From a bacterium (GTDB taxonomy: Bacteria > JAHJDO01): DNA of 12,022 nt. The stretch lies in assembly GCA_030652805.1 (NCBI GenBank), contig JAUSPT010000088.1:1-12022 (forward strand). The letters run 5' to 3'. The first letter of the stretch is position 1. The number at the start of each line of letters is the position of its first letter. The position numbers and the translations under genes were made by a program. Shown in pieces: positions 1 through 12,022 of this stretch. The notes under the pieces were generated by a model, which was not told where the DNA came from, made no database searches, and saw nothing but the letters and a program-made list of their open reading frames with translations.

Positions 1-1228
1 CGATAACTTCTTCAGTATTAAATATCGAGGGCTGCCCCCAGCCTTTTCTAATTATCTCGCAAGCTCTTCTTAAAAACTTATCCGGGCTTTTCTTGCTCAA
101 TAGAAAATTGCTACTGGGTTGCAATAATATCATTTCATCGATTACATCGAGTATCAGATAGGTTAAGTCATTCACTCCATCAGAACCATCAACCTTTAAT
201 CCACCATTATTAATATTGGCAAAATCGGTATAGGTCCCACTTTCTGCTAAAGTTACTCCTACTTTGGGCGGTGCCGGTTGGTTGTTAAACTTTATCCAAA
301 AATACTCTAAAAGTTCCTTTGCTTTCTCCTGGTTCAGCGTCCCCTCTTCCAGCTCCTTTTTATAAAAGGGGTATAGATGCTGGTCTAATCTGCCGGGGTT
401 AAAGGAGTCCCAAGTATTAAGTTCGGTGATAACTCCTAAGTGAACGAACCAGTACATCTGGAGGGCTTCCCAAAAATTTCGGGGAGGATGGACGGGGATA
501 TGCGAACAAACTTCGGTAATTTTGAAAAGTTCCTTTTTTCTTTGAGGATTTTTCTCGGCTTTAGCCATCTCTAAGGCTTTTTCGGCATAGCGCTCGGCAA
601 ATCTGATTATCGCTTTAGCACAGATAAGCATTGCTTTTAACTCTTCCTGTTTATCATAAGCTTCGGGGTCATTTAAATAATCAAGATTCTGCATACTTTT
701 CTCTATATCCCGGATAAAATCAGAAAAACCTTTATAATATATCTTGTCATCTGCCACCGTATGTCCGGGAGCTCTCTGCTCCATGAATTCGGTAAATATT
801 CCGGCTGTGTAACAGTCCTTCCACTCCAGAGTCATCTCTTTAAATATCCGACTGCGCATTGACCTGTTTTCCCAATAAGGAATAATTTTCTCTTTTTGAA
901 TTTCCTTTATTTTCTGATTTACTGTAAAAAAAATCTTCTTTCGATTATTAATCAGTTCGAGGTCTTCCAGACTGTGACAACATAATTCAGGAAAGGTGGG
1001 AGTCGCCCGGGGGTGTTCCCCTCTTTCTCCTACAATAAGTTCTCCTTCACCAATACATATACTTTTATTTTCCAGAACATATCCAAAAACTAAGGCACGA
1101 AGAACAGGAGCTGAAACTGTTCCGTTGTACTTCTTATAGGCTTCAGTCACTAAATTTGCCCGCTCAATAGAAATATAAGGTTGTGTATCTAAACTTTCCT
1201 GTCTTAATTTTTTTACTCTTTCATTCAT
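1..1228 (-). CDS. hypD: Glycyl radical enzyme, trans-4-hydroxy-L-proline dehydratase (HypD)-like, 3' part cut by window edge
   Basis: I translated this frame directly: ATG at 1228, beginning MNERVKKLRQESLDTQPYIS, open to the window edge for 409 residues. Blocks EFMEQRAPGHTV, ELNTWDSFNPGRLDQHLYPF, KFNNQPAPPKVG, TDFANINNGG and RKGWGQPSIFNTE closely match what I remember of the Clostridioides difficile hydroxyproline dehydratase (about 790 residues). This is the glycyl radical HypD, not the hydrogenase maturation protein. The family dehydrates trans-4-hydroxyproline to pyrroline-5-carboxylate in the cytoplasm under anoxia. The catalytic Cys and the radical-bearing Gly near the C-terminus lie outside the window, so activity cannot be judged. 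The SD TAAGAGG (1238-1244) lies in a duplicated tail of the activase gene. radC ends 30 bp upstream, so hypD may now be read with the restriction operon. No proC is visible, so the substrate is inferred from similarity only; other PFL-like dehydratases remain possible. Confidence 0.78.
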   Translation of the reverse strand, partial: MNERVKKLRQESLDTQPYISIERANLVTEAYKKYNGTVSAPVLRALVFGYVLENKSICIGEGELIVGERGEHPRATPTFPELCCHSLEDLELINNRKKIFFTVNQKIKEIQKEKIIPYWENRSMRSRIFKEMTLEWKDCYTAGIFTEFMEQRAPGHTVADDKIYYKGFSDFIRDIEKSMQNLDYLNDPEAYDKQEELKAMLICAKAIIRFAERYAEKALEMAKAEKNPQRKKELFKITEVCSHIPVHPPRNFWEALQMYWFVHLGVITELNTWDSFNPGRLDQHLYPFYKKELEEGTLNQEKAKELLEYFWIKFNNQPAPPKVGVTLAESGTYTDFANINNGGLKVDGSDGVNDLTYLILDVIDEMILLQPSSNFLLSKKSPDKFLRRACEIIRKGWGQPSIFNTEEVI

Positions 1229-1232
1229 ATAG

Positions 1233-1284
1233 ATTAACCTCTTAATTTTACATTCAGATTAAACTTCCTTAAAATCATTGCAGA
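1233..1284 (-). repeat. Orphan copy of the activase gene 3' end (left direct repeat)
   Basis: This segment matches 9004-9052, the last codons of the complete activase gene. The first 44 bases (1233-1276 against 9004-9047) agree at 42 positions. A 3-bp insertion (1277-1279) follows, then GCAGA is shared again. Read in the activase frame it gives SAMILRKFNLNVKLRG-stop, against SAILRKFNLKVKLRG-stop in the intact gene. The copy carries the SD of hypD and also the stop codon now used by radC. It marks the left end of the inserted restriction-modification island. Confidence 0.9.
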
Positions 1285-1963
1285 CCCCATTCTCTTTAAA
1301 ACTAAAATAACCATTCCCACCGATTATAATATGGTCTAATAAAACAATATCTACAGTTTTGAGGGCGGCTTTTATAGCCTTTGTTATACTGCAATCATCC
1401 TCTGATGGTTTTAAGGATTCTCCGGGATGATTGTGTGAAATAATAACGCCTGTCGCATGATTGTGTAATGCCCGTTCAACAATTTTTCTGGGATATACTA
1501 CTGATTTATTAACCGTTCCTTTTTGTATAGTCTCAACTGCCAGCAGACGATTTCTGCTATTTAAGAACATGACTTTAAATTCTTCGTCAGCTGATCCTTT
1601 TAAAGAAGCTTTCAGATAATCATAGACAACATCTGGTGAAGAAACTAAATCTTTTTTATAGAGCCCCTTCTCAAGGTAAATTACTGAAATGTCTTTTAAA
1701 AAATTGAGAAACAAGGCACCATGTTCGGAAATACCACAAACTTTTTTCAGCTCTTTCCTGTCAGCATCCAATACACCATTGAGTGTTTTGAATTCAGATA
1801 ACAACTGCTTTGCAATAGGCTTAGTGTCTTTTCTGAGAATGGTAAAGGATAAGGCAAATTCCAGCACCTCGTAATCAAGCCATCCTTTTATCCCACCGCT
1901 TTTGTACTTTGCCTTTATTCTCTTGCGATGTCCAAGATAATCTGGTTTTAAAGCTTTACTCAC
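1259..1963 (-). CDS. radC: RadC-family JAB/MPN-domain protein
   Basis: A 234-residue RadC-type protein. The N-terminal part (about 10-90) has helix-hairpin-helix character, including KKVCGISE. The C-terminal JAB/MPN domain has the metal-binding signature H177-x-H179-x10-D190 (HNHPGESLKPSEDD), with a plausible upstream glutamate in DEEF near 126-129. Despite its historic name, RadC has no settled enzymatic role; it is common in defence islands and mobile elements. The start is GTG at 1963, embedded in GTGA with the stop of the metallopeptidase gene, so translation is probably coupled. The C-terminus is odd. RadC proteins normally end shortly after a SFKExG motif, whereas here SFKENG is followed by VCNDFKEV, encoded by the duplicated activase tail. 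The gene apparently lost its own last codons and stop at the island junction. The catalytic core is intact. Confidence 0.9.
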   Translation of the reverse strand: MSKALKPDYLGHRKRIKAKYKSGGIKGWLDYEVLEFALSFTILRKDTKPIAKQLLSEFKTLNGVLDADRKELKKVCGISEHGALFLNFLKDISVIYLEKGLYKKDLVSSPDVVYDYLKASLKGSADEEFKVMFLNSRNRLLAVETIQKGTVNKSVVYPRKIVERALHNHATGVIISHNHPGESLKPSEDDCSITKAIKAALKTVDIVLLDHIIIGGNGYFSFKENGVCNDFKEV

Positions 1964-2301
1964 CTATCTACCTTCAGCCTTTCACTGTATTTTTCCCAAT
2001 CCGGCAAGAAAGCAAACATCAGACTTTTGAATAATTTGCCATGATTAGGGATTTTCATATGCAGCAGTTCATGAACAATTACGTAATCACAAAGTTCTCT
2101 CTCCATTTTAAAAAGTTTAGTGTTAAATGTTAATCTTCCATTTTGCGATAATGATGCCCACTTGTTTTTCATAAAACGCAAATGTATATCTTTCGGCTCA
2201 ACATCCAGTTTCTCTGCCCATTTAAAAATGTTTGATTTAAACTTCTCTGACTCATTTGATTGGTTCAGACATTCTCTATTTTTACTTAGAAGCATTGGCA
2301 T
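1960..2301 (-). CDS. Short YgjP-like (DUF45/M48-type) zinc metallopeptidase
   Basis: A 113-residue protein with the zincin motif HELLH (77-81) and a likely third zinc ligand in PNHGKLF (H87). The preceding stretch KWASLSQNGRLTFN matches the usual YgjP pattern of W-(G/A)-S followed by a strand. Full-length YgjP proteins are about twice as long; this one keeps only the C-terminal catalytic half. Short relatives of this kind are often found next to hsdR genes. The ATG at 2301 follows the hsdR stop without a spacer, and its own stop overlaps the radC start by 4 bp. A second in-frame ATG at 2295 is possible. It is probably a cytoplasmic protease acting with the restriction system. The substrate is unknown, and the link to restriction is inferred from gene order. 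Confidence 0.82.
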   Translation of the reverse strand: MPMLLSKNRECLNQSNESEKFKSNIFKWAEKLDVEPKDIHLRFMKNKWASLSQNGRLTFNTKLFKMERELCDYVIVHELLHMKIPNHGKLFKSLMFAFLPDWEKYSERLKVDR

Positions 2302-5190
2302 TTATCTTCTCTCCAGTTTCAGAATCTTCTCAACAAGTTCAACAGCCTTTGTTTTATTTTCTTCTTTCAGTAGTATCTTATACAACTGTGTGGTTAGCTC
2401 TCTCTTCTCCTCACTGTTTAATCTCCAGTTGGGATAATCTTCAAATATGCCATTAATCTTTACTGCCAGTGTATCTGGCTTTGAAATTCCGCTCTTCTTA
2501 AATAACCAGAAAATCGTAAAAGTATTAACATCAAAATTCTTTTCAGTCTGCTCCTTGTGTGCCTGATTAATCTCTCTGATAATTTCTTCTAATCTTTTTA
2601 AAGCTTCAAGAGTCATAATGCGTCTGTCATCATACAGCTCAATAACAGTCTGTGCCTTTTCACCTATGGAGATCAAATATGGCTGGGTATCCCGATTATC
2701 ATCAATAAACTTAATAATGCTTTTTCTTAAATTAATTATCTTAACATTATTAGACTTATCGCTTTTCTTTAATACCTCAAGAGTATCTTCTTTTATCTCA
2801 TAAATCGGAAGCATGGAGGAAATGTCTGTTGTATAAACATGCTTTTTAACCAGGTCAGAGGTCTTCCGCATCAACTCCTTATCCAGAAGAATCCTTTTGG
2901 CAAAGGCATTTCTAATAATGCTGTAAAGATAAGAAATTCTCCAGTAATCATTTATATAATCCCTTAAGAATTTATCTGGTGAGATAATCTCATAAAGCAT
3001 TTCAAGCTGCTTAAAGAACTTGTAAAAATCTTCTCTCTTGTCTTTATCACTAAAAATTTCAATTGCTCTTTCAACCGTTTTATCATCAAATCTACGTCCT
3101 ATCAATTCAAGATATGGCCTGGCTTTACCTTTCATCAGGTTTTCAAAGGTTGATTTCAATATATCTATATTTCTGATAACACTTGCCACAACATCTGAAT
3201 CAAAAGCCAGTGCCTTTTCGAGTCTTTCAAATATACCAACAAAATCAAGAACAAATCCTGCAGGTTTCTTTAAACCATCTTCATCCTCGTAAGGCCTGTT
3301 AACTCTGGCTATGGCTTGCAAAAGAGTATGATCCTTCATGGGCTTGTCTAGATACATACAATAAAGAATGGGGGCATCATATCCTGTTAATAACTTATCA
3401 GTAACTATCAATATCTTTGGCATCTTTGTTTTGTTTGGGAAAATCTTGCCTTTCAATTCCCGCTCCTTATACTCGCTTAAATAGTGCTCTTTTAAGAATG
3501 CCCTGTCATTTTGAGCCTGACTATAAACAACTATGGAATATTCAGAAGGAAGATATTTATCCAATGCTTTTTTATACAAGGCACACGCTTCTCTGTCTAC
3601 CGCAACCAGAAATGCCTTATAGCCCATAGGTTCAACATTTTCCTTATAGTGTTTAGCTACAAACTCAGCAACTTTCTTAACACGGTCTTCGGATTTTAGG
3701 AAATTCTTCAAACTTACTGCCTTATCTAATAATTTGTTTAATTCCTCTACATCACTAACACCTTCTTTTTCCATCAATGCAAAAAATTCCTTCTCAAGCA
3801 TTTCTTTAGGTACTCTTATCTCGCTTGGAGCAAGTGTGTAATGCAAAGGGAGAGTAGTACCATCTTCAATTGATTCTGCAATGGAATACTTATCCAGATA
3901 TCCTTTTTCATCCTCTTTGCCAAATATCTTGAACGTGCCTTTGCCATAAAGAATCTTATCAATGGGCGTACCGGTAAAGCCAAAATATGTTGCATCGGGA
4001 AGTGCAGCTATAAGATAATTGCCCAGGTCGCCGGTAGTAGTTCTGTGCGCTTCATCTATCAGCACAAAAATATTATCTCTTTTGTTGATATCCTTTGGCA
4101 TGCCTTCAAATTTGTGAATCATTGAAACTATAAGCCCGCGGTAGTCTGAAGAGAGAAGTTCTCGCAATTCCTTTTTGGAGTCTGCTATTTTCATTCCTTT
4201 TCCTTCTTTAAAACCGTAGGCATCAAGATTTCTGAAGAGTTGACTTTCCAGCTCATTTCTGTCAACAAGCATAATAACTGTCGGCTTTTCAAATTCTGGC
4301 TGCTGCAATATTTTTTCTGCTGCTACAATCATGGTGAAGGTTTTACCTGCACCTTGTGCATGCCATATAAGTCCTGTCTTCTTTTCCTCCTCCAATGCCC
4401 TATTAACTATCTTTTCCACTGCTCTTGTCTGGTGCTGACGCATAATTATTTTGGATAATACGTCATTTTTCCGGAAGAAGATAATATAATCCTTTATAAG
4501 TTGTAATACACGACCCTTATCGAAGAAAGTCTTGACCTTCTTCTCAAAATTTCCTTTTTCCACATCTTTCCAGTTAAAAAGTCCTTTTCTGTCAAGATTC
4601 CAGGTTACTCCATAATAAAAATCAAGCAGGTGGGTAACATCAAATATCTGATTTGAGGCCATCATCTCGGGTGTTTCAGAATGGTAGCGTCTTATCTGGG
4701 CAATTCCTTCTTCAATTCCTTCCCGCTTGTTGGCATTTTTTGTCTCTGCAATTATTACAGGAATACCATTTATCAGGAATATAACATCTCCTCTGTTGGT
4801 AAATTTGCCGTTGGTGTATTGCCATTCATCTGTTACGTGAAACTGGTTATTTTCAATGTTATCATTATTAAAGTCAATAAATCTTATATTTAGCTCCCGT
4901 TTATCCCTCTCATAGTAAACAGATTTCTCACCTTTAAGATATTGCAGGATTTCCTGATTGCCTTCTATTGAACTCTTTACATTTCCCATCCGTTTTATGA
5001 TTTCATTCGCTTTTTCGCTATTGATTATGCCCTTATTCAGATTGATTAACTGTTCTTTAAGGATATTGTAAAAAAATAATCCTGCCTCACCTTGTCTTAA
5101 GGCTACAGCTTCATCTCTGGTTAAATAAGTCCATCCGATTTGCCTGGCATATTTAATCAACGGTTCCTGGACTATTTTTCGTTCAGACAT
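2302..5190 (-). CDS. hsdR: Type I restriction enzyme, R (endonuclease/translocase) subunit
   Basis: A complete 962-residue HsdR. The N-terminal PD-(D/E)xK nuclease is visible as D135 in RGDVIF followed by E149-T-K151. The SF2 motor follows: RQHQTRAVEK (251-260), Walker A HAQGAGKT (277-284), DEAH (379-382) and GFTGTPI (404-410). Further on come the motif V region TDKLLTGYDAP and motif VI QAIARVNRP. The C-terminal helical region should dock to the methylase core. In the HsdR2M2S complex it translocates DNA using ATP and cuts DNA that lacks the host methylation. The ATG at 5190 lies one base after the hsdS stop, with GAGG just upstream. All key motifs are present, so the gene appears functional. 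Confidence 0.96.
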   Translation of the reverse strand: MSERKIVQEPLIKYARQIGWTYLTRDEAVALRQGEAGLFFYNILKEQLINLNKGIINSEKANEIIKRMGNVKSSIEGNQEILQYLKGEKSVYYERDKRELNIRFIDFNNDNIENNQFHVTDEWQYTNGKFTNRGDVIFLINGIPVIIAETKNANKREGIEEGIAQIRRYHSETPEMMASNQIFDVTHLLDFYYGVTWNLDRKGLFNWKDVEKGNFEKKVKTFFDKGRVLQLIKDYIIFFRKNDVLSKIIMRQHQTRAVEKIVNRALEEEKKTGLIWHAQGAGKTFTMIVAAEKILQQPEFEKPTVIMLVDRNELESQLFRNLDAYGFKEGKGMKIADSKKELRELLSSDYRGLIVSMIHKFEGMPKDINKRDNIFVLIDEAHRTTTGDLGNYLIAALPDATYFGFTGTPIDKILYGKGTFKIFGKEDEKGYLDKYSIAESIEDGTTLPLHYTLAPSEIRVPKEMLEKEFFALMEKEGVSDVEELNKLLDKAVSLKNFLKSEDRVKKVAEFVAKHYKENVEPMGYKAFLVAVDREACALYKKALDKYLPSEYSIVVYSQAQNDRAFLKEHYLSEYKERELKGKIFPNKTKMPKILIVTDKLLTGYDAPILYCMYLDKPMKDHTLLQAIARVNRPYEDEDGLKKPAGFVLDFVGIFERLEKALAFDSDVVASVIRNIDILKSTFENLMKGKARPYLELIGRRFDDKTVERAIEIFSDKDKREDFYKFFKQLEMLYEIISPDKFLRDYINDYWRISYLYSIIRNAFAKRILLDKELMRKTSDLVKKHVYTTDISSMLPIYEIKEDTLEVLKKSDKSNNVKIINLRKSIIKFIDDNRDTQPYLISIGEKAQTVIELYDDRRIMTLEALKRLEEIIREINQAHKEQTEKNFDVNTFTIFWLFKKSGISKPDTLAVKINGIFEDYPNWRLNSEEKRELTTQLYKILLKEENKTKAVELVEKILKLERR

Positions 5191-5191
5191 T

Positions 5192-6388
5192 TTAATTAAC
5201 CTCTACATCTAAATCTCTCACTCTGATTTTCACTCTGATTTTTCCAGTCATTAACTGGTTAAGCATGGTTCTGAATAAAGCTTGAAAGGTTTGTTTTTTG
5301 GATTCGGCTTGGGAAAGTTTTTTATCTATTTTATCTATTGCCTTTATTATATCCAATTGCTCGCTTATATTAGGGAAAGGAAATCGATAGTTTTCCAAAT
5401 CCTGACGTTGTAAGCTTGGTATTGTTGTTTTTGCATGCTCGCCTGAGAGTTGATTTATTGACATATAATAATAAAGGAATTTGGGGGTAACCATTTCTGA
5501 TTTCCATTCAAGATAAAAAGTAGTATCGGATGGCCAGCAAGGTTCTAAAAATAAATGAACAGCTCCGGCATTACCCTTTCTTCCTACAATTAATGTAGGG
5601 AAATTAATCAAAGGTTTTTCACACCATGCGTAAATTCTGCTAGAGCCGACCACTGGAATTTGACCTATTATTTTTGGCTTTTGTTTCCCATACTTTATTT
5701 TTGCAAATTCATTTATTTTTCTTACATCCCAACTCTTCGGCATCAAACCAATATCGGTTTCTTTTTGTTCTTCGCCATGCAAGCCTTCAGTGAAAAGTTT
5801 ATTCATAAGGGATTTCTTTAGCTCTCTTGTTGTTTCAATTATTCTATCCTGTTGTTCAATAGCCTGCTGGATTTTTGACAGGACAAAAGCAATTTTCTGT
5901 TGTTCTTGTATTGAGAAAAAAGGAATTTTTATGTGCAGTATTGCCTTGCTTGAATGCTTAATTGTTACTCCTGTTGTATATTTTTCAATAGTTCTTTGAA
6001 CATAGATTGTTTGCAATACATAATAAACGTAGTCTGAAAATAAATCCTTGTTTATAATTACTACTTTACGTATTCCTGATGAATATGCACCCTCTAAGCC
6101 TTGCTTAACTATCCCCGGGCTACCATCAAAAGTAATTAAAATATCTTTCTTTTTGCATAGTTTTAATTTTTTTGAAGTTGTATAAGTCTTATCATCTCGG
6201 CTACCTGAGATATCAACTACTCTTAAAAATCTTACCCCTTTCTTATCTTTATTATAATTTTCACTTCCTGGCTCAGTGCCTCTTTCAAATTGAATATATT
6301 TATCAACATTAACAACTTCCCAATCTTCAGGGATCAGTCCGATTTCTGTTTCTTTGAAACCGTTTTCTATTACTGCTTTGGTTTTCAT
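5192..6388 (-). CDS. hsdS: Type I restriction-modification specificity (S) subunit
   Basis: A complete 398-residue HsdS with the usual two-fold design. Half-repeats open with KETEIGLIPEDW (12-23) and KETDIGLMPKSW (209-220), each starting a target recognition domain (about 20-155 and 217-335). Conserved coiled-coil segments follow each one: QEQQKIAFVLSKIQQAIEQQ (161-180, continuing to LMNKLFTEGLHG) and SEQLDIIKAIDKIDKKLSQA (342-361). The two domains each read one half of a split DNA target, which cannot be predicted here. The start ATG overlaps the hsdM stop as ATGA, so translation is coupled. The C-terminus holds KIRVKIRV from a perfect 12-bp tandem duplication; the family usually ends near LMTGKIRV. 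Confidence 0.95.
   Translation of the reverse strand: MKTKAVIENGFKETEIGLIPEDWEVVNVDKYIQFERGTEPGSENYNKDKKGVRFLRVVDISGSRDDKTYTTSKKLKLCKKKDILITFDGSPGIVKQGLEGAYSSGIRKVVIINKDLFSDYVYYVLQTIYVQRTIEKYTTGVTIKHSSKAILHIKIPFFSIQEQQKIAFVLSKIQQAIEQQDRIIETTRELKKSLMNKLFTEGLHGEEQKETDIGLMPKSWDVRKINEFAKIKYGKQKPKIIGQIPVVGSSRIYAWCEKPLINFPTLIVGRKGNAGAVHLFLEPCWPSDTTFYLEWKSEMVTPKFLYYYMSINQLSGEHAKTTIPSLQRQDLENYRFPFPNISEQLDIIKAIDKIDKKLSQAESKKQTFQALFRTMLNQLMTGKIRVKIRVRDLDVEVN
5219..5242 (-). repeat. Perfect 12-bp tandem duplication in the 3' end of hsdS
   Basis: The plus-strand unit CACTCTGATTTT occurs twice head to tail. On the coding strand it gives KIRV-KIRV near the HsdS C-terminus. The unit is a multiple of three, so gain or loss of a copy would keep the frame. 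It resembles a slippage product. Confidence 0.9.
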
Positions 6389-7917
6389 TCTTCCTTCAAG
6401 AATCCTCTTTGTGTAATATTTTTCATTATCTCGTTAAGTTCTCTGTCTGTCTTTTTTCTTTCCTCTTCAAGCTCTGCTAGTTCAACAAGTATCTCATCAA
6501 CATCCCGATATTCTTCTTCTTTGCCATTACCAACATATCTTGACGGGCTTAAATTATAATCGTTCTTCTCGGCTTCTTGGTTAGTGATTATTCTTGTAAA
6601 TTTGTCTATGTTCTTCCAATCATGAAACGCCTTAGCTATTTTTTCAATCTTATCATCTGGTATGAAATTCTTAGGTCGTCCTTTTTCAAACTCTAAAGAG
6701 GTATTCATCAACATAATCCTGTCTTTTCTTTCCTTTGGCTTGTTTTTGTTCAGTATTAAGATAATTCCTGGTGCAGTTGTGTTATAAAATAGATTTTCGG
6801 GCAAAAGCAAAACTGCCTCTATCCAGTCACTATCTACGAATGCCTTGCGGATTTCCTTTTCTCTGTTACTTCCTTTGTTTCCTGAACCCCTTGCAACAGA
6901 ACCGGTATCCAGAACTATTGCAGCTTTTCCGTTCTTGTTTAATGAAGCAAACATAAGCTGGATCCATCCCCAATCAGCAGAGCTTGTAGGTGGGTAACCA
7001 TTATTAAAGCGGTTGAATGTATCAGACTCATAAAACTCACTGTTATAGCCATCTTGATTCCACATAGGATTAGCCACAACTAAATCAAAGGTTTTCAATA
7101 TACTCCCCTCAAGAAATTTCGGGTTACGGAGTGTATCTCCTATTGCAATGTCGCCTTCCATATCGTGAATAATCATATTCATCTTTGCCATTGCATAGGT
7201 AACGTAATTCTGCTCCTGTCCGTAAAGTCTCAAAGGTTTTAAAATCTTCTTCTCTTTTTCCTTAAGAGCAAGTTGGGATTTAACAAGTAATCCTCCCGAA
7301 CCACACGCCGGATCATAAACCTCTTGACCTTGCTCAGGATCCAAAATATAAGCCATAATCCAACCGACTTCTTTGGGAGTGTAAAACTCTCCTGCGCTCT
7401 GCCCCTGCCCTTCTGCAAACTTGCGAAGCAGATATTCGTATGCCCTTCCAAGAATGTCAGGTTCAGCATCTTTTAAGCCAAGCCTATTCCTGCTAATAAT
7501 CTCTATCAAACTGCTTAGCTTACCATCATCTATTATTCTCTGCCCGCTTACAGTGGCATTAAAATCAACTATGTCAATTACCCCCTGTAATTTCGGATTT
7601 TCTTTTGCTATTGCACGAATAGCATCTGTCAATTTCTCTCCGATTTTGGTTGTCTGCTTTCTTATTTGTTGCCAGGCTGCCTGTTTTGGAATAAAGAATC
7701 TCACCAAATTATGGTCTTTTGAAACAATCTCTATTGCGGTTTCTCCATCCCCAAATTCTTCAGAAAGTCTTTTAATCTCATCCTCAAAAACATCAGAAAG
7801 TCTTTTCACAAAAATCAGAGGCAGGATGTAATCCTTGAACTTTGGAGCATCCACAGCTCCCCGAATACTACAGGCAGCATTCCACAACCATGTTTCAAGA
7901 GTTTTAATGTCTAACAT
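6385..7917 (-). CDS. hsdM: Type I restriction-modification DNA methyltransferase (M) subunit
   Basis: A complete 510-residue HsdM, an adenine-N6 methyltransferase using S-adenosylmethionine. The N-terminal helical HsdM_N region covers about 1-150. GQSAGEFYTP (172-181) is the usual entry to the catalytic domain. Motif I is DPACGSGG (202-209). Motif IV is NPMW (283-286), where NPP followed by an aromatic residue is most common. The C-terminal helices (about 465-500, rich in E and K) should contact HsdS. It forms the M2S methylase with HsdS and protects host DNA at the recognised site. The ATG at 7917 has AGGAG upstream at a fairly long spacing (about 12 nt). It lies 62 bp after the nucleotidyltransferase gene, the widest gap in the operon, and overlaps hsdS by 4 bp. 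Confidence 0.96.
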   Translation of the reverse strand: MLDIKTLETWLWNAACSIRGAVDAPKFKDYILPLIFVKRLSDVFEDEIKRLSEEFGDGETAIEIVSKDHNLVRFFIPKQAAWQQIRKQTTKIGEKLTDAIRAIAKENPKLQGVIDIVDFNATVSGQRIIDDGKLSSLIEIISRNRLGLKDAEPDILGRAYEYLLRKFAEGQGQSAGEFYTPKEVGWIMAYILDPEQGQEVYDPACGSGGLLVKSQLALKEKEKKILKPLRLYGQEQNYVTYAMAKMNMIIHDMEGDIAIGDTLRNPKFLEGSILKTFDLVVANPMWNQDGYNSEFYESDTFNRFNNGYPPTSSADWGWIQLMFASLNKNGKAAIVLDTGSVARGSGNKGSNREKEIRKAFVDSDWIEAVLLLPENLFYNTTAPGIILILNKNKPKERKDRIMLMNTSLEFEKGRPKNFIPDDKIEKIAKAFHDWKNIDKFTRIITNQEAEKNDYNLSPSRYVGNGKEEEYRDVDEILVELAELEEERKKTDRELNEIMKNITQRGFLKEE

Positions 7918-7937
7918 ATCTTAACCAATCTCCTCGA

Positions 7938-7954
7938 AATTTAATTAATAAATT
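7938..7954. repeat. AT-rich 17-bp inverted repeat between the nucleotidyltransferase gene and hsdM
   Basis: AATTTA-ATTAA-TAAATT is a perfect 6-bp inverted repeat around a 5-bp centre, in the 62-bp spacer upstream of hsdM. It could be a binding site that uncouples hsdM expression from the first two genes. Such AT palindromes also arise by chance in AT-rich DNA, and no run of T typical of a terminator follows. Confidence 0.3.
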
Positions 7955-7979
7955 CCCCCAAATCCTCCGGCTTAATCTA

Positions 7980-8558
7980 CTATTTCCACACCTTTAACTG
8001 CTCAAATTTCACTTTAAATTTCTTAAAGAATTTCTCAATCTTTTGTTTTTGCACATAAGGAATTATTACACAACCTGCAGAAAGTTTCTGGCCGCCTATC
8101 TCCTGTAATAAACCTTTATACTTGTATCCTTTTCTTGTCTGTTCGTAAAGTTGCCTGTTGAATCTTGCCTTTTCTTTCTGAAGTAAGCTGCTTATCTGAA
8201 AAGAATAGATCAGATAAGGTTTTTGTTGCAGTAATATAGCGGATGGTATGTCGGATGGCTCTCTCAAGTAGAGAATCTTTCCTTCCTGAAAGATGTTCTG
8301 TAGTAAACCCGTATCTGTTTTCTGCAATTCAGCTAAAGTTCTTATGGTTGGCTGAATATTTCTGCCTATTTCGGATTCAAGTTCTATTACTTTATCGTGT
8401 ATCTCTTTCTGGGTGTTATAATCGGTTGTAAGTATAAACAAGTCAACGTCTGACCTGGAAGTAAATTCTCCTCTGGCAAGACTGCCATAAAGGATAATAG
8501 CTTTTACATCTTCAATTTTGGAAAGCTCTTTTGCTATCTTTTTAAGTATTCTCTTCAT
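7980..8558 (-). CDS. MNT-type nucleotidyltransferase domain protein
   Basis: From the ATG at 8558 this is a 192-residue protein. The minimal nucleotidyltransferase motif is clear: G25-S26 and R29-G30 in YGSLARGEFTSRSDVDLFIL, with D37 and D39 as metal ligands. A third carboxylate is not obvious: the strand where it usually lies reads NIQPTI (67-72). The C-terminal half (about 75-192) is basic and contains RKGYKYKGLLQEIGGQKL, which I associate with related archaeal and bacterial nucleotidyltransferases but cannot name. The frame stays open to a TTG at 8594. I prefer the ATG because GGAG lies 9 nt upstream and the overlap with the preceding gene falls to 17 bp. MNT proteins paired with small HEPN-type partners form toxin-antitoxin modules in which the MNT protein adds nucleotides to its partner. 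That role is an inference from gene order here. Confidence 0.8.
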   Translation of the reverse strand: MKRILKKIAKELSKIEDVKAIILYGSLARGEFTSRSDVDLFILTTDYNTQKEIHDKVIELESEIGRNIQPTIRTLAELQKTDTGLLQNIFQEGKILYLREPSDIPSAILLQQKPYLIYSFQISSLLQKEKARFNRQLYEQTRKGYKYKGLLQEIGGQKLSAGCVIIPYVQKQKIEKFFKKFKVKFEQLKVWK

Positions 8559-8910
8559 TGATCTTCTCTCCAAATCTTTTTTCAAAAAACTCAATTATTA
8601 CTTTTAAATTATCTGTTACCGCCTTCGCTCTTTCGCCATTAATTCCGTCATAACCCAAATCTCCATAAGCAAACCATATTTTACGCATTGCCTGGTTTAT
8701 TTCAACAGGAAAATTTTCATTTGAATATTCATGTCTACTCTGGTGGTCGCCAAAATGCTCTCCCTTTCTAGCAGCATCAGCTTCTACCAACTGCTCAACA
8801 ACCTTTGTGCCCAAATCACCAACCACTGTGCTCTGCTTGTTGTGATAGGCAGTTAATGTTGCTTCATACTTCTCTTTTGCTAATTCAAAATGTTTCTGAA
8901 AATCTCCCAT
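8542..8910 (-). CDS. Small helical protein, possible HEPN-like partner of the nucleotidyltransferase
   Basis: First gene of the defence operon, 122 residues. I do not recognise the family with certainty. It is predicted to be all-helical and has an unusual His/Arg-rich centre (ARKGEHFGDHQSRHEY, 47-62), followed by aromatic-rich helices (IWFAYGDLGYDG and IIEFFEKRFGEK). The size, the helical make-up, a polar R/H cluster after the first long helix and the overlap with a MNT gene suggest a HEPN-like protein. However, the canonical R-x4-6-H motif is not clear: the nearest spacings are R48-x3-H52 and R48-x7-H56. The ATG at 8910 has AAAGG upstream (TGAAAGGATGAAAAATG) and lies about 24 nt downstream of the -10 box. 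Alternatives are an antitoxin, or the repressor that binds the promoter palindromes, although no helix-turn-helix is evident. Confidence 0.7.
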   Translation of the reverse strand: MGDFQKHFELAKEKYEATLTAYHNKQSTVVGDLGTKVVEQLVEADAARKGEHFGDHQSRHEYSNENFPVEINQAMRKIWFAYGDLGYDGINGERAKAVTDNLKVIIEFFEKRFGEKINEENT

Positions 8911-8927
8911 TTTTCATCCTTTCATTT

Positions 8928-8944
8928 TTCGTTATTGTAACGAA
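8928..8944. promoter_or_regulatory. Operator-like palindrome 1, covering the -10 box
   Basis: TTCGTTATTGTAACGAA has perfect 7-bp arms around a TTG centre. It contains the whole -10 hexamer of the operon promoter, so a bound protein would block RNA polymerase. An identical copy lies 39 bp upstream. Confidence 0.8.
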
Positions 8945-8962
8945 TTATGGCTATTTTGTCAA
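8934..8962 (-). promoter_or_regulatory. Consensus sigma-70 promoter of the restriction-modification operon
   Basis: Read on the minus strand: -35 TTGACA (8957-8962), exactly 17 bp of spacer, -10 TACAAT (8934-8939). Transcription should start near 8927, giving a leader of under 20 nt before the ATG at 8910. The match to consensus is nearly perfect, so unrepressed expression should be strong. The flanking palindromes imply tight control. Confidence 0.85.
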
Positions 8963-8966
8963 GTTT

Positions 8967-8983
8967 TTCGTTATTGTAACGAA
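8967..8983. promoter_or_regulatory. Operator-like palindrome 2, just upstream of the -35 box
   Basis: Exact second copy of TTCGTTATTGTAACGAA, beginning 5 bp beyond the -35 hexamer. The identity extends three further T residues on the low-coordinate side (8964-8983 equals 8925-8944). Two identical sites bracketing the promoter suggest cooperative binding or looping by a dimeric repressor. Confidence 0.8.
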
Positions 8984-9006
8984 GGTAGGAGTTGCCTGGG
9001 GGTATT
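8982..9006 (-). pseudogene. Remnant of hypD (about codons 71-79) fused to the activase stop
   Basis: These 25 bases match 993-1017 inside hypD at 21 positions, and all four differences are transitions (C or G in hypD, T or A here). In the hypD frame the remnant reads YPQATPTF where hypD reads HPRATPTF. It directly abuts the activase stop codon. The preceding CCTCTT (9009-9014) also aligns with 1020-1025 of hypD, so the fusion is best explained by a deletion between AAGAGG microhomologies. It is short, so chance similarity is not fully excluded; position, order and frame all agree with a remnant. Confidence 0.6.
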
Positions 9007-9052
9007 AACCTCTTAATTTTACCTTCAAATTAAACTTCCTTAAAATCGCAGA
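9004..9052 (-). repeat. Intact activase 3' end (right direct repeat)
   Basis: This is the parental location of the sequence duplicated at 1233-1284: the last 15 codons of the activase, including the SD-like TAAGAGG that originally served hypD. With the left copy it brackets the restriction-modification island as an imperfect direct repeat. Confidence 0.9.
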
Positions 9053-9907
9053 TACCTCGGATAATTTTTCTTCCGAAGGAGATTGTGTAGTTGCTAACTT
9101 ATAAGTCCTTCCCAATCTTCCGTATTTATCTATGCCAATATAGTGATAAGGGAGAAGATTGACCTGAGCAATTTTTAAGGAAGACAAAAATTCTCCCGTT
9201 TCCCTGATGTTTTGATAATCATCATTTATACCGGGGATTACCGGAAAACGAATAAAAATATTATTGTGAATTGAGGAGAGTTTCTTCAAATTTTCTAAAA
9301 TGAGCTCATTAGATACCCCGGTATATTTTTTATGCCTTTCGCTATCCATTATCTTAAGGTCGTATAAAAAAAGATCTATTTTAGGGGTTATTTTGTCTAA
9401 AATTCCCCAGGAAATATATCCGGAGGTATCGACTGCGGTATGGATCTTCTTTTCTTGGCAACAAATAAGGAGACTCTCTAAAAATTCAGATTGCCCCAAT
9501 GGCTCTCCACCGGAGAAGGTCACCCCTCCGCCGGATTCTTCATAAAATACTAAATCTTTCTCTGCCTCTTTTATAACCTCTTCAGTGGTTAGTTTTTTTC
9601 CTATCATTTCCCGGGCTAAGGCTGGGCATTTTTCTATACACTTTCCGCAAAGAATGCATTTCTCTTTATCAGTAACCGGCTTTTTATTTTTCATTTGGAT
9701 AGCACTTGAGGGGCAATTCAAAGAACATACTCCACAGCCAATGCATCTATCTTCCCAGAATACCATTTCCTGCCCGCTTAATTGGCTTTCGGGATTCTGG
9801 CACCACCAGCAATTAAGCGGACATCCTTTTAAAAAGACTGTAGTTCGAATTCCTGGTCCATCATGAATCGAATATCTTTGAATATTAAAAACTGTTCCTG
9901 TAGTCAT
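9005..9907 (-). CDS. Glycyl radical enzyme activase (radical SAM)
   Basis: A 300-residue activating enzyme of the PflA/HypE type. It uses S-adenosylmethionine and a reduced [4Fe-4S] cluster to place the glycyl radical on its partner, here most likely the HypD-like enzyme. The N-terminus NIQRYSIHDGPGIRTTVFLKGC is typical. The radical SAM motif is C29-x3-C33-x2-C36. A two-cluster ferredoxin insert follows, CIGCGVCSLNCP (55-66) and CILCGKCIEKCP (84-95), then GGGVTFSGGEP (126-136). The frame extends to a TTG at 9943. I chose the ATG at 9907 because relatives start just before TVFNIQRYS, and the longer form would be encoded by a palindromic repeat. No strong SD precedes the ATG. The transketolase stop is 14 bp upstream, so the two are probably co-transcribed. 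Its partner gene has been moved about 7.8 kb away by the inserted island. Confidence 0.93.
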   Translation of the reverse strand: MTTGTVFNIQRYSIHDGPGIRTTVFLKGCPLNCWWCQNPESQLSGQEMVFWEDRCIGCGVCSLNCPSSAIQMKNKKPVTDKEKCILCGKCIEKCPALAREMIGKKLTTEEVIKEAEKDLVFYEESGGGVTFSGGEPLGQSEFLESLLICCQEKKIHTAVDTSGYISWGILDKITPKIDLFLYDLKIMDSERHKKYTGVSNELILENLKKLSSIHNNIFIRFPVIPGINDDYQNIRETGEFLSSLKIAQVNLLPYHYIGIDKYGRLGRTYKLATTQSPSEEKLSEVSAILRKFNLKVKLRG

Positions 9908-9917
9908 AAGAACAGAT

Positions 9918-9944
9918 TTTGTCAAAGGACCGTCCCCAGACAAA
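9918..9944. repeat. 27-bp interrupted palindrome (REP-like) at the transketolase stop
   Basis: On the plus strand the layout is TTTGTC-AAA-GGAC-C-GTCC-CCA-GACAAA: two nested pairs of complementary arms (6 and 4 bp) around one base. It includes the transketolase stop codon (9922-9924) and encodes the residues LGTVL at the end of that protein. A GGGGACGGTCC core resembles short palindromes that I recall as dispersed in several anaerobe genomes. There is no T-run, so it is not a standard terminator. Confidence 0.6.
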
Positions 9945-11910
9945 GTTTGATGATTTTTTGGGCAATTTTTTCAGGAGTAAAACCAAAATAATCGGCTAAT
10001 TGCTGATCGGGTGCACTCTTACCGAAAGACTTCATAAATACTGTGTAATAAGAATCGTTTAATAATTGATACCAACCCTGGCCGGTATTAGCTTCAATTA
10101 CTACCCGAAGTGCGTCTTTAGGCCCCAGAACCTCTTCTATATATTTTTTTTCTTGTCTTAAAAATTCTTCTCTGTCCGGAATAGATACTACTCGACCGGT
10201 AATACCGTTCACTTTTAAGATAAGATTTACCTTTACGGCTATCGAAACTTCACTACCGCTGGCCATTAATACCACCTGGGGTACTTCTTTCTCTTTGTGG
10301 GATATTACATAACCGCCACAGGAGAATTCTTTTACGCCGTGGTATTTTTCCAGATGAGGTAAATTCTGCCGGGATAAAACCAGGGCAGTAGGACCTTCTG
10401 TTCTTTTCAAAACTTCCTTCCAAGCTAATTTGGTCTCTTCTTCATCGGCAGGTCTGATGACTTTTAAACCGGGGATAAGTCTTAAAGATTCCAGCTGTTC
10501 CACCGGCTGATGAGTAGGGCCATCTTCTCCCACCATTATAGAATCGTGGGTAAAGATATAGATTACCGGGAGTCCCATTAAGGCAGCCATTCTAATAGCC
10601 GGACGCATATAATCAGAAAAAACAAAGAAAGTGGAACAATATGGTCTCAATCCCTTGTGTGCTGCTATGCCATTAACAATCGCCCCCATAGCATGTTCTC
10701 TAACTCCAAACCTGAGGTTTCTACCTTTAAAACTGTTTTTTTGAACTTCTCCATAGTTATTAAGATATGTTTTGGTAGAAGGAGATAAATCCGCTGAACC
10801 TCCGATAAGATAAGGAATTTTATCAGCAAGTTCATTTAAAACTACCGATGAGGCCACTCGGGTAGCTACCGGAGATTTTATTTCCAGGCTATCTAGTTCT
10901 AAATCTTGAGGAATAATTAAATTTAACGCCTTATTCCATTGCTTTTTTAGTTCGGGGTATTTTTTGCCCCATTGGGTAAATTTATCTTCCCATTCTTCTC
11001 TTTTTTGGGTAAGCTGTCTTTTTCTGTTTTTAAAAAATTCTTTGACCTCAGAGGAGACATAAAATTTTTCATCTAAGGGTAATCCTAAATTTTTCTTTAA
11101 ACCTTCTATTTCTTCTTCACCCAGGGGTGCGCCGTGACAGCTGCAAGAATCCTGCTTGGTAGGTGCACCATACCCAATATGGGTATTTGCTATAATTAAA
11201 GTGGGTTTATCTTCGCTCTCTTTAGCTTTAATAATAGCTGCTTTAATTTCTTCAATACTGTGGCCATCAATATGATCAATTACTTTCCATTTATAAGCCC
11301 TAAATCTATCGGCTACCGACTCGGTAAAAGTAGCTTTAGTCTCTCCGGCAAGACAGATTTTGTTATTATCATAGATAGCAATTAACTTTCCCAGACCCAG
11401 GTGTCCGGCCAGTGATGCAGCTTCGGAAGTAATCCCCTCCATCATACAGCCATCACCTAAAAGGGTATAAGTATGGTGGTCAACAATCTTATAATCCTCG
11501 GCATTAAACCTGGCTGCTAACATCTTTTCTGCTAATTCCATTCCCACCGCATTGGCAAAGCCCTGTCCCAATGGTCCGGTAGTGACTTCGACCCCGGGAG
11601 TTTTTCCATATTCAGGATGACCGGGAGTTTTAGAATTAAGCTGTCTGAATTTTTTTAAATCATCGAGAGAAAGGTTATATCCCGAAAGGTGTAACAGAGA
11701 ATACAACCAGGCTGAACCATGTCCGGCAGATAGCACAAAACGGTCTCGGTCTGGCCAATCTGGAGTAGAAGAATCGTATTTTAATACATCTCCAAAGAGA
11801 ACTACACCGATTTCTGCACAACCCAAAGGTAATCCCGGGTGACCGGAATTAGCCGTCTCTATCATATCTACAGCCAACCCTCTTACTATATTAGCGATTC
11901 TATAAAACAA
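9922..11910 (-). CDS. tkt: Transketolase
   Basis: A full-length, 662-residue thiamine-diphosphate enzyme that moves two-carbon ketol units between sugar phosphates in the non-oxidative pentose phosphate pathway (cytoplasm). Seen in order: ANSGHPG with H24, SAGHGS with H64, GPLGQG (112-117), and the ThDP/metal motif beginning G152-D-G and ending near N182-N183. The pyrimidine-binding domain has FGVREHAMG with the catalytic E405, then HDSIMVGEDGPTHQP (455-469). The start is TTG at 11910, supported by a perfect AAGGAGG (11920-11926) nine bases upstream and by conservation beginning at once with IANIVRGLAVD. The last residues, LGTVL, come from a palindromic element, so the original C-terminus was probably slightly different. 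As an uncut single-chain form it differs from the split N/C transketolases found in many anaerobes. Confidence 0.96.
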   Translation of the reverse strand: MFYRIANIVRGLAVDMIETANSGHPGLPLGCAEIGVVLFGDVLKYDSSTPDWPDRDRFVLSAGHGSAWLYSLLHLSGYNLSLDDLKKFRQLNSKTPGHPEYGKTPGVEVTTGPLGQGFANAVGMELAEKMLAARFNAEDYKIVDHHTYTLLGDGCMMEGITSEAASLAGHLGLGKLIAIYDNNKICLAGETKATFTESVADRFRAYKWKVIDHIDGHSIEEIKAAIIKAKESEDKPTLIIANTHIGYGAPTKQDSCSCHGAPLGEEEIEGLKKNLGLPLDEKFYVSSEVKEFFKNRKRQLTQKREEWEDKFTQWGKKYPELKKQWNKALNLIIPQDLELDSLEIKSPVATRVASSVVLNELADKIPYLIGGSADLSPSTKTYLNNYGEVQKNSFKGRNLRFGVREHAMGAIVNGIAAHKGLRPYCSTFFVFSDYMRPAIRMAALMGLPVIYIFTHDSIMVGEDGPTHQPVEQLESLRLIPGLKVIRPADEEETKLAWKEVLKRTEGPTALVLSRQNLPHLEKYHGVKEFSCGGYVISHKEKEVPQVVLMASGSEVSIAVKVNLILKVNGITGRVVSIPDREEFLRQEKKYIEEVLGPKDALRVVIEANTGQGWYQLLNDSYYTVFMKSFGKSAPDQQLADYFGFTPEKIAQKIIKLCLGTVL

Positions 11911-11919
11911 TTTATAATT

Positions 11920-11926
11920 CCTCCTT
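11920..11926 (-). promoter_or_regulatory. Ribosome binding site deciding the TTG start of transketolase
   Basis: AAGGAGG on the minus strand, nine bases before TTG at 11910. It is the strongest SD in the window. No in-frame ATG with such a signal lies nearby; the next in-frame Met (residue 16) is inside the conserved domain. Confidence 0.85.
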
Positions 11927-11950
11927 CTCTTATGAATACTGATATTAAAT

Positions 11951-11979
11951 ATTTTACACTTATTTTTTTTCTTCTACAA
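11951..11979 (-). promoter_or_regulatory. Probable sigma-70 promoter of the transketolase-activase operon
   Basis: On the minus strand TTGTAG (11974-11979), 17 bp of spacer, TAAAAT (11951-11956), about 40 bp before the start codon. The surrounding 100 bp is very AT-rich, so chance matches are likely and the call is moderate. Nothing else is seen between 11927 and the window end. Confidence 0.45.
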
Positions 11980-12022
11980 ACTTTTTTGTTTTATATAATA
12001 TTACTATATAAGTTGATGATGG

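Follow-up and report, generated by a model that had tools for sequence, protein, structure and literature searches.

Twin palindromic sites at the promoter of a HEPN-nucleotidyltransferase module as probable operators of a self-repressing system placed before type I restriction-modification genes

The window analysed here is a 12,022-nucleotide stretch of bacterial DNA (GTDB lineage Bacteria; JAHJDO01; GenBank assembly GCA_030652805.1, contig JAUSPT010000088.1, positions 1 to 12,022), in which seven co-directional genes lie downstream of a promoter bracketed by two identical 17-bp palindromes. The palindromes are read as operators of a mobile, self-repressing HEPN-nucleotidyltransferase module of the toxin-antitoxin-like kind, in which nucleotidyltransferase dimers would bind and block RNA polymerase, with type I restriction-modification (R-M) genes behind the same promoter. 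From the comparison of related loci, we give this reading a probability of about two in three.

Results

Twin sites and the promoter

Exact copies of the 17-mer TTCGTTATTGTAACGAA were found at 8928-8944 and 8967-8983. Both have the form TTCGTTA-N3-TAACGAA, in which two perfectly complementary 7-bp arms enclose 3 bases, and they stand in a register of 39 bp with 22 bp between them. The chance expectation for the 17-mer in the window was 0.05 matches at up to 3 mismatches, and the observed number was reached in 0 of 200 shuffles. The promoter, TTGACA-N17-TACAAT, lies on the minus strand (8962-8957 and 8939-8934) and matches the consensus at 11 of 12 positions. On that strand the order is TTCGTTACAATAACGAA-AAAC-TTGACA-AAATAGCCATAA-TTCGTTACAATAACGAA, followed by 17 bp and the ATG at 8910. 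The first-pass annotation of this DNA had described twin identical palindromes 39 bp apart around such a promoter, and the exact 17-mers and the promoter match bear this out; the span it gave, 8925-8983, contains real sites but begins 3 bp before their true start at 8928.

8967-8983, minus strand: putative operator 1 (upstream), the identical 17-mer 39 bp from operator 2, at the left edge of the island-specific sequence
8957-8962, minus strand: -35 hexamer TTGACA, between the two operators
8934-8939, minus strand: -10 hexamer TACAAT, within operator 2
8928-8944, minus strand: putative operator 2 (gene-proximal), TTCGTTA-CAA-TAACGAA, holding the -10 box and kept in 17 bacterial loci

The first two genes

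The 122-aa product of the first gene gave no family above noise in Pfam, PADLOC or NCBIfam and was identified through its fold only. Its AlphaFold model (predicted local distance difference test score, pLDDT, 85; predicted template modelling score, pTM, 0.80) is a HEPN bundle. The top six VIA-align matches were all HEPN proteins, led by 2hsb (Archaeoglobus AF_0298; Z 16.7, root-mean-square deviation (rmsd) 2.2 over 117 residues), and on this modelled structure the protein is a divergent HEPN fold. The Rx4-6H catalytic motif is absent from it and, in a motif scan, was not conserved across 13 members. The second gene encodes a nucleotidyltransferase of the MntA-like kind (MNT), whose open frame runs from a TTG at 8594 and comprises 204 aa. 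It matched Pfam Polbeta (9.6e-17), and its model matched the MNT antitoxin 8xeh_E (Z 12.3, rmsd 2.3 over 100 residues). The GSX10DXD motif (G37-S38-X10-D49-X-D51) was present in 17 of 17 members. The score against the NCBIfam MntA_antitoxin model was 48.5 bits, below the cut-off of 60.

8542-8910, minus strand: 122-aa HEPN-fold protein, presumed toxin or substrate partner (AlphaFold model and VIA-align fold matches; no Rx4-6H)
7980-8558, minus strand: MntA-like nucleotidyltransferase, proposed autorepressor (192 aa from the ATG conserved in relatives; Pfam Polbeta, 8xeh_E fold)
7983-8225, minus strand: basic ferredoxin-like C-terminal domain of the nucleotidyltransferase, proposed to bind DNA (residues 124-204 of the 204-aa frame)
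8145-8180, minus strand: candidate recognition helix, residues 139-150 of the C-terminal domain, in which K140 and R147 vary with operator class

Proteins of HEPN fold and MNT fold (the 2hsb and 8xeh_E matches) are thus adjacent in one operon, as in HepT/MntA pairs. Membership of that family is incomplete because Rx4-6H is missing and the MntA model scored under its cut-off; we therefore treat the module as working like a HEPN-MNT pair, but toxicity should not be assumed. A Pfam scan of all seven operon proteins identified no helix-turn-helix family, in agreement with the first-pass annotation.

Further copies and relatives

The search for more copies of the 17-mer that had been proposed as a check was run across the 2.0-Mb genome. 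It returned a single further exact copy, at C2:8241-8257, whose partner at 39 bp is degenerate (3 mismatches). This site directly precedes a paralogue of the HEPN and nucleotidyltransferase genes (80% and 88% identical) without R-M genes. All other matches at up to 3 mismatches were at control level, with no enrichment outside the two module copies. The paralogous module on contig 2 (L008) is followed by a transposase-like gene (L008 9590-10867), and an IS66-like transposase lies upstream of it (5522-7018).

Relatives were found in metagenome-assembled genomes labelled Atribacterota, Elusimicrobia, Omnitrophota, Actinomycetota and Archaeoglobus. As the loci come mostly from such assemblies, errors are possible in the host labels and in some of the frame breaks. 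In nearly all relatives, the HEPN-nucleotidyltransferase pair stands alone amid unrelated genes. A search for the spaced site pair in 385 genomes returned only the module, one nucleotidyltransferase on its own (L028) and two relics that have neither gene and whose sites carry 2-3 mismatches. The twin sites belong to the first two genes and not to the R-M genes.

The relics, L076 (G210) and L077 (G069), are operator-promoter remnants without either gene; in L076 a RadC-family gene is next, as at the end of the window operon. Adjoining the L052/L062 module, a second nucleotidyltransferase with an N-terminal helix-turn-helix-like part and a HEPN-like gene were noted (L062 6273-6839 and 5861-6289). 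Viral scans identified no further module members. A phage or plasmid origin was considered and rejected: searches of phages, plasmids and viral contigs gave no match to the proteins, and viral contigs gave none to the twin sites.

Conservation and variation of the sites

A site lies directly before the first gene in all bacterial relatives with readable upstream DNA, and two sites are present in 17 of 18. Across these 17 bacterial loci, drawn from several phyla, the spacing is 39 or 40 bp in 16 and 50 bp in L054, an addition of 11 bp or about one helical turn. The exception, L017, has one site; compared with its neighbour L014 it lacks exactly 39 bp, the length that a deletion between repeats would remove. 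Among members with 39-bp spacing, the arms show 87% mean pairwise identity and the spacers 49%. In one clade (TTCC..GGAA), and a second time in L054 (TATC..GATA), position 4/14 reads C-G in place of G-C, a change that is mostly symmetric, so that the sites fall by lineage into TTCG..CGAA, TTCC..GGAA and TATC..GATA classes with their symmetry mostly kept. The class follows the clade of the module and not the host, as two loci from the same phylum, Elusimicrobia, carry TTCC (L015) and TTCG (L053) sites.

Promoter-like hexamers lie between the sites, as in the window, or upstream of both in seven members (L015, L016, L022, L027, L049, L051 and L052). The conserved feature is therefore the site pair and not its place relative to RNA polymerase. 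As in autoregulated toxin-antitoxin systems, a conserved operator-like pair is present in the module's own promoter in 17 bacterial loci. The earlier proposal of a strong promoter held down by a dimeric repressor fits this pattern, and a conserved, symmetric site pair over a strong promoter is best read as operators for such a protein.

The Archaeoglobus-related archaeal members carry TTCGTwGAAyTrTT repeated at 39 bp with a TATA-like box between the copies, and probably share the paired sites. In L030 (G364), a distantly related HEPN/MNT pair that also has a C-terminal domain of this kind, TTGTCACT is repeated 40 bp apart upstream of the HEPN-like gene (shuffle p 0.003). The first copy is palindromic (TTGTCA-N6-TGACAA) and lies downstream of a TTGACT-N17-TAGAAT promoter, which is suggestive of the same twin-operator design, possibly with another specificity. 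A borderline palindrome pair was seen in L029 (shuffle p 0.07), and no repeat pair above shuffles was found in L036, L037 or L039, which are MNT loci sharing the C-terminal domain.

Sites at loci without an intact HEPN gene

The HEPN gene is deleted in L028 and L083 (first seen as L068) and broken by stops or a frameshift in L016, L019, L050 and L051. The nucleotidyltransferase is intact at all six of these loci, and both sites are kept in all five bacterial ones; the sites are perfect in L028 and L083, where HEPN is deleted, and in L050, where it is broken. L083 is a second copy of the island, 86-91% identical and flanked by the same pair of genes; only HEPN is missing from it. Because the sites persist at HEPN-loss loci with an intact nucleotidyltransferase, site integrity follows the nucleotidyltransferase and not HEPN.

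These loci bear on the first-pass annotation in three ways. Its heading that the operon holds no regulator is not supported, since the sites track the HEPN/MNT module across phyla and stay where HEPN is gone and the nucleotidyltransferase is kept. Its suggestion that the repressor is one of the two small first-gene products, or is encoded elsewhere, is supported in its former part, specifically for the nucleotidyltransferase; the latter part is not, as the genome offers no other targets. The association of the palindromes with the conserved operon was not contradicted, as the sites are retained in L083, the only other island copy found, where the HEPN gene is deleted.

The C-terminal domain of the nucleotidyltransferase

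The C-terminal domain is predicted to have b-a-b-b-a-b secondary structure, with ferredoxin-like fold matches at Z of about 7.5-8.4 and rmsd of ~2 over ~65 residues. The last 82 residues of the nucleotidyltransferase are strongly basic (19 K/R versus 5 D/E), unlike the N-terminal domain or HEPN. At position 140, all bacterial TTCG-class nucleotidyltransferases have K or R and all C-class ones have N, and residue 147 is R, N or Y according to operator class. This covariation is weak evidence that the first helix of the domain is a candidate DNA-contact surface, because HEPN columns partition the classes too. Covariation as proof of the binding protein was accordingly rejected (6 MNT and 7 HEPN columns, with TTCC a single clade) and was kept as support for the candidate helix only.

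Discussion

Proposed mechanism and points against it

On the comparative evidence, the nucleotidyltransferase is probably the autorepressor of the operon. A dimer would bind each 17-bp site, probably through the basic ferredoxin-like C-terminal domain, so that both the distance between two dimers (39-40 bp, or 50 bp) and their helical phase would be fixed. They would cover the -10/-35 region, or sit just downstream in other members, and RNA polymerase would be blocked. The type I R-M operon, placed behind the twin-operator promoter in the window, would share its control. What the loci show directly is the sites themselves, how they are conserved and vary with most of their symmetry intact, that they are confined to the module or its relics, and that they outlast HEPN; DNA binding by the nucleotidyltransferase, repression through that binding, cooperation of the two dimers and co-transcription of the R-M genes are what we infer.

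Several observations weigh against this account. Two loci that look functional, L008 and L020, have a degenerate first site, and the archaeal copies are direct repeats with less symmetry (shuffle p 0.01-0.09). A ferredoxin-like fold occurs widely and does not by itself indicate DNA binding (Z ~8, model pTM 0.54). Of the columns that separate operator classes, 6 lie in the nucleotidyltransferase (2 of them in the candidate helix) but 7 in HEPN, and the TTCC class is one clade. Some of the HEPN breaks could be assembly errors or recoding, and the stop in L050 could be a single-base error.

Alternative explanations

The two genes are co-conserved, and solved structures show HEPN-MNT complexes. 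The DNA-binding repressor might thus be the complex, or HEPN itself, with conditional cooperativity as in type II toxin-antitoxin systems; the separation of operator classes by HEPN residues as well as by nucleotidyltransferase residues would suit this. We nevertheless consider it unlikely, given the perfect sites beside an intact nucleotidyltransferase in L028, L083 and L050 and the fact that, among the loci found, HEPN never occurred without the nucleotidyltransferase except at contig ends. HEPN could modulate the affinity of the repressor. Recognition of the sites by a host regulator encoded elsewhere, such as a dimeric helix-turn-helix repressor, would explain why the operon encodes no such protein and why the palindrome is shaped like many host operators. 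It is improbable, as occurrences elsewhere in the genome do not exceed the control level, the same sites accompany a mobile module in unrelated phyla, and the operator class switches with the module clade and not with the host, as in the two Elusimicrobia loci.

Two further explanations do not involve a repressor. The repeats could form RNA hairpins in a 5' leader, for translational control or as a type III-like antitoxin RNA. In the seven members with hexamers upstream of both repeats, both would be transcribed, and the second is near the ribosome-binding site. In the window type, operator 1 is upstream of the -35 and operator 2 holds the -10, which places the pair outside the transcript; it therefore cannot act as RNA from that promoter. 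With a TATA-like box between the repeats in the archaeal relatives, and pairing broken at positions 5/13 in several second sites, hairpins are very improbable. The chance that the repeats are mobile-element ends or recombination sites is slimmer still. The sequence shared with relatives does begin at operator 1, the left edge of the island, but no matching copy was found at the island's other end, and the sites always lie at the promoter and start codon with fixed spacing, stand-alone modules included.

Comparison with known systems

C-protein controlled R-M systems have paired operators before an R-M operon. C proteins are small helix-turn-helix proteins, of which the window operon encodes none by Pfam scan, and unlike those systems the window-type sites belong to the HEPN-MNT module even without a restriction system. 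In the type II system MqsRA the proteins are unrelated to those of the window, and MqsA, the autorepressor, carries its own DNA-binding domain. MqsRA resembles the window in its two highly similar promoter palindromes (cited as a comparison in PMC4621449). In AbiE, a type IV system, the antitoxin AbiEi represses its own promoter and binds there to paired inverted repeats, with positive cooperativity in S. agalactiae (PMC7319586). The likeness is an antitoxin on paired promoter repeats; the difference is that in the window the proposed repressor is the nucleotidyltransferase, and neither the AbiEi nor the AbiEii family was found in Pfam or PADLOC scans of the first two proteins.

A close counterpart is SO_3166/SO_3165 of Shewanella oneidensis (HepT/MntA, type VII), which shares the HEPN and MNT pair and GSX10DXD in the MNT. 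Gel shifts show that SO_3165, an MNT antitoxin in which no DNA-binding domain has been recognised, binds its own promoter, and deletion of the operon raises promoter activity 1.6-fold (PMC4621449). That promoter has two dissimilar palindromes near the -10 and -35 (PMC4621449), whereas the window operators are identical or nearly so, with a spacing kept across phyla. The MNT gene is first in Shewanella, and HEPN is first in the window module, where HEPN lacks Rx4-6H and the MNT has the extra basic C-terminal domain. Given the SO_3165 and AbiEi precedents, the principle is known; what is new is the extra C-terminal domain, the constant phase between two nearly identical operators, and the R-M cargo.

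The R-M genes and the island

The gap between the nucleotidyltransferase gene and hsdM is only 62 bp, with no strong promoter found in it, and the genes from hsdM through radC overlap or abut. Expression of the R-M genes would thus be controlled by the twin-operator promoter, a layout seen so far only in the window island and L083.

6385-7917, minus strand: hsdM, type I methyltransferase (Pfam; probably in the same transcription unit)
5192-6388, minus strand: hsdS, specificity subunit (Pfam)
2302-5190, minus strand: hsdR, type I restriction subunit (Pfam)
1960-2301, minus strand: YgjP-like metallopeptidase (Pfam)
1259-1963, minus strand: RadC-family protein (Pfam)

The genes on either side of the island encode a glycyl-radical-enzyme activase and its PFL-like partner (window 8984-9047 and 928-1276). 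A transketolase-like gene (9922-11910) is directly upstream of the activase and co-directional with the activase and the PFL-like enzyme. A second copy of the 3' end of the activase gene (9004-9047) stands directly ahead of the PFL start, at 1233-1276, and L083 has a PFL gene fragment beside operator 1, which points to target-DNA duplication on insertion.

Significance

HEPN-MNT modules have been called the most abundant prokaryotic toxin-antitoxin pairs (PMC7641770). Their regulation is barely known, and a literature search turned up a single gel shift, made with an MNT in which no DNA-binding domain is visible (PMC4621449). A wider proposal is offered tentatively, at somewhat less than even odds: an MNT antitoxin may have gained a ferredoxin-like, sequence-specific DNA-binding domain with its first helix as the recognition helix, so that one protein would be enzyme, antitoxin and repressor; paired operators in fixed helical phase would have been preserved in archaea and in several phyla of bacteria; and the module could bring further defence genes, such as the type I R-M system of the window, under its own control. 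The sub-family offers a candidate DNA-binding domain, operator specificities that have switched, alleles from which HEPN has been deleted naturally, and an operator resolved to the base by comparison of loci; a few gel shifts would therefore suffice to test the mechanism. The sub-family also provides a case of a toxin-antitoxin promoter that apparently drives a restriction-modification system.
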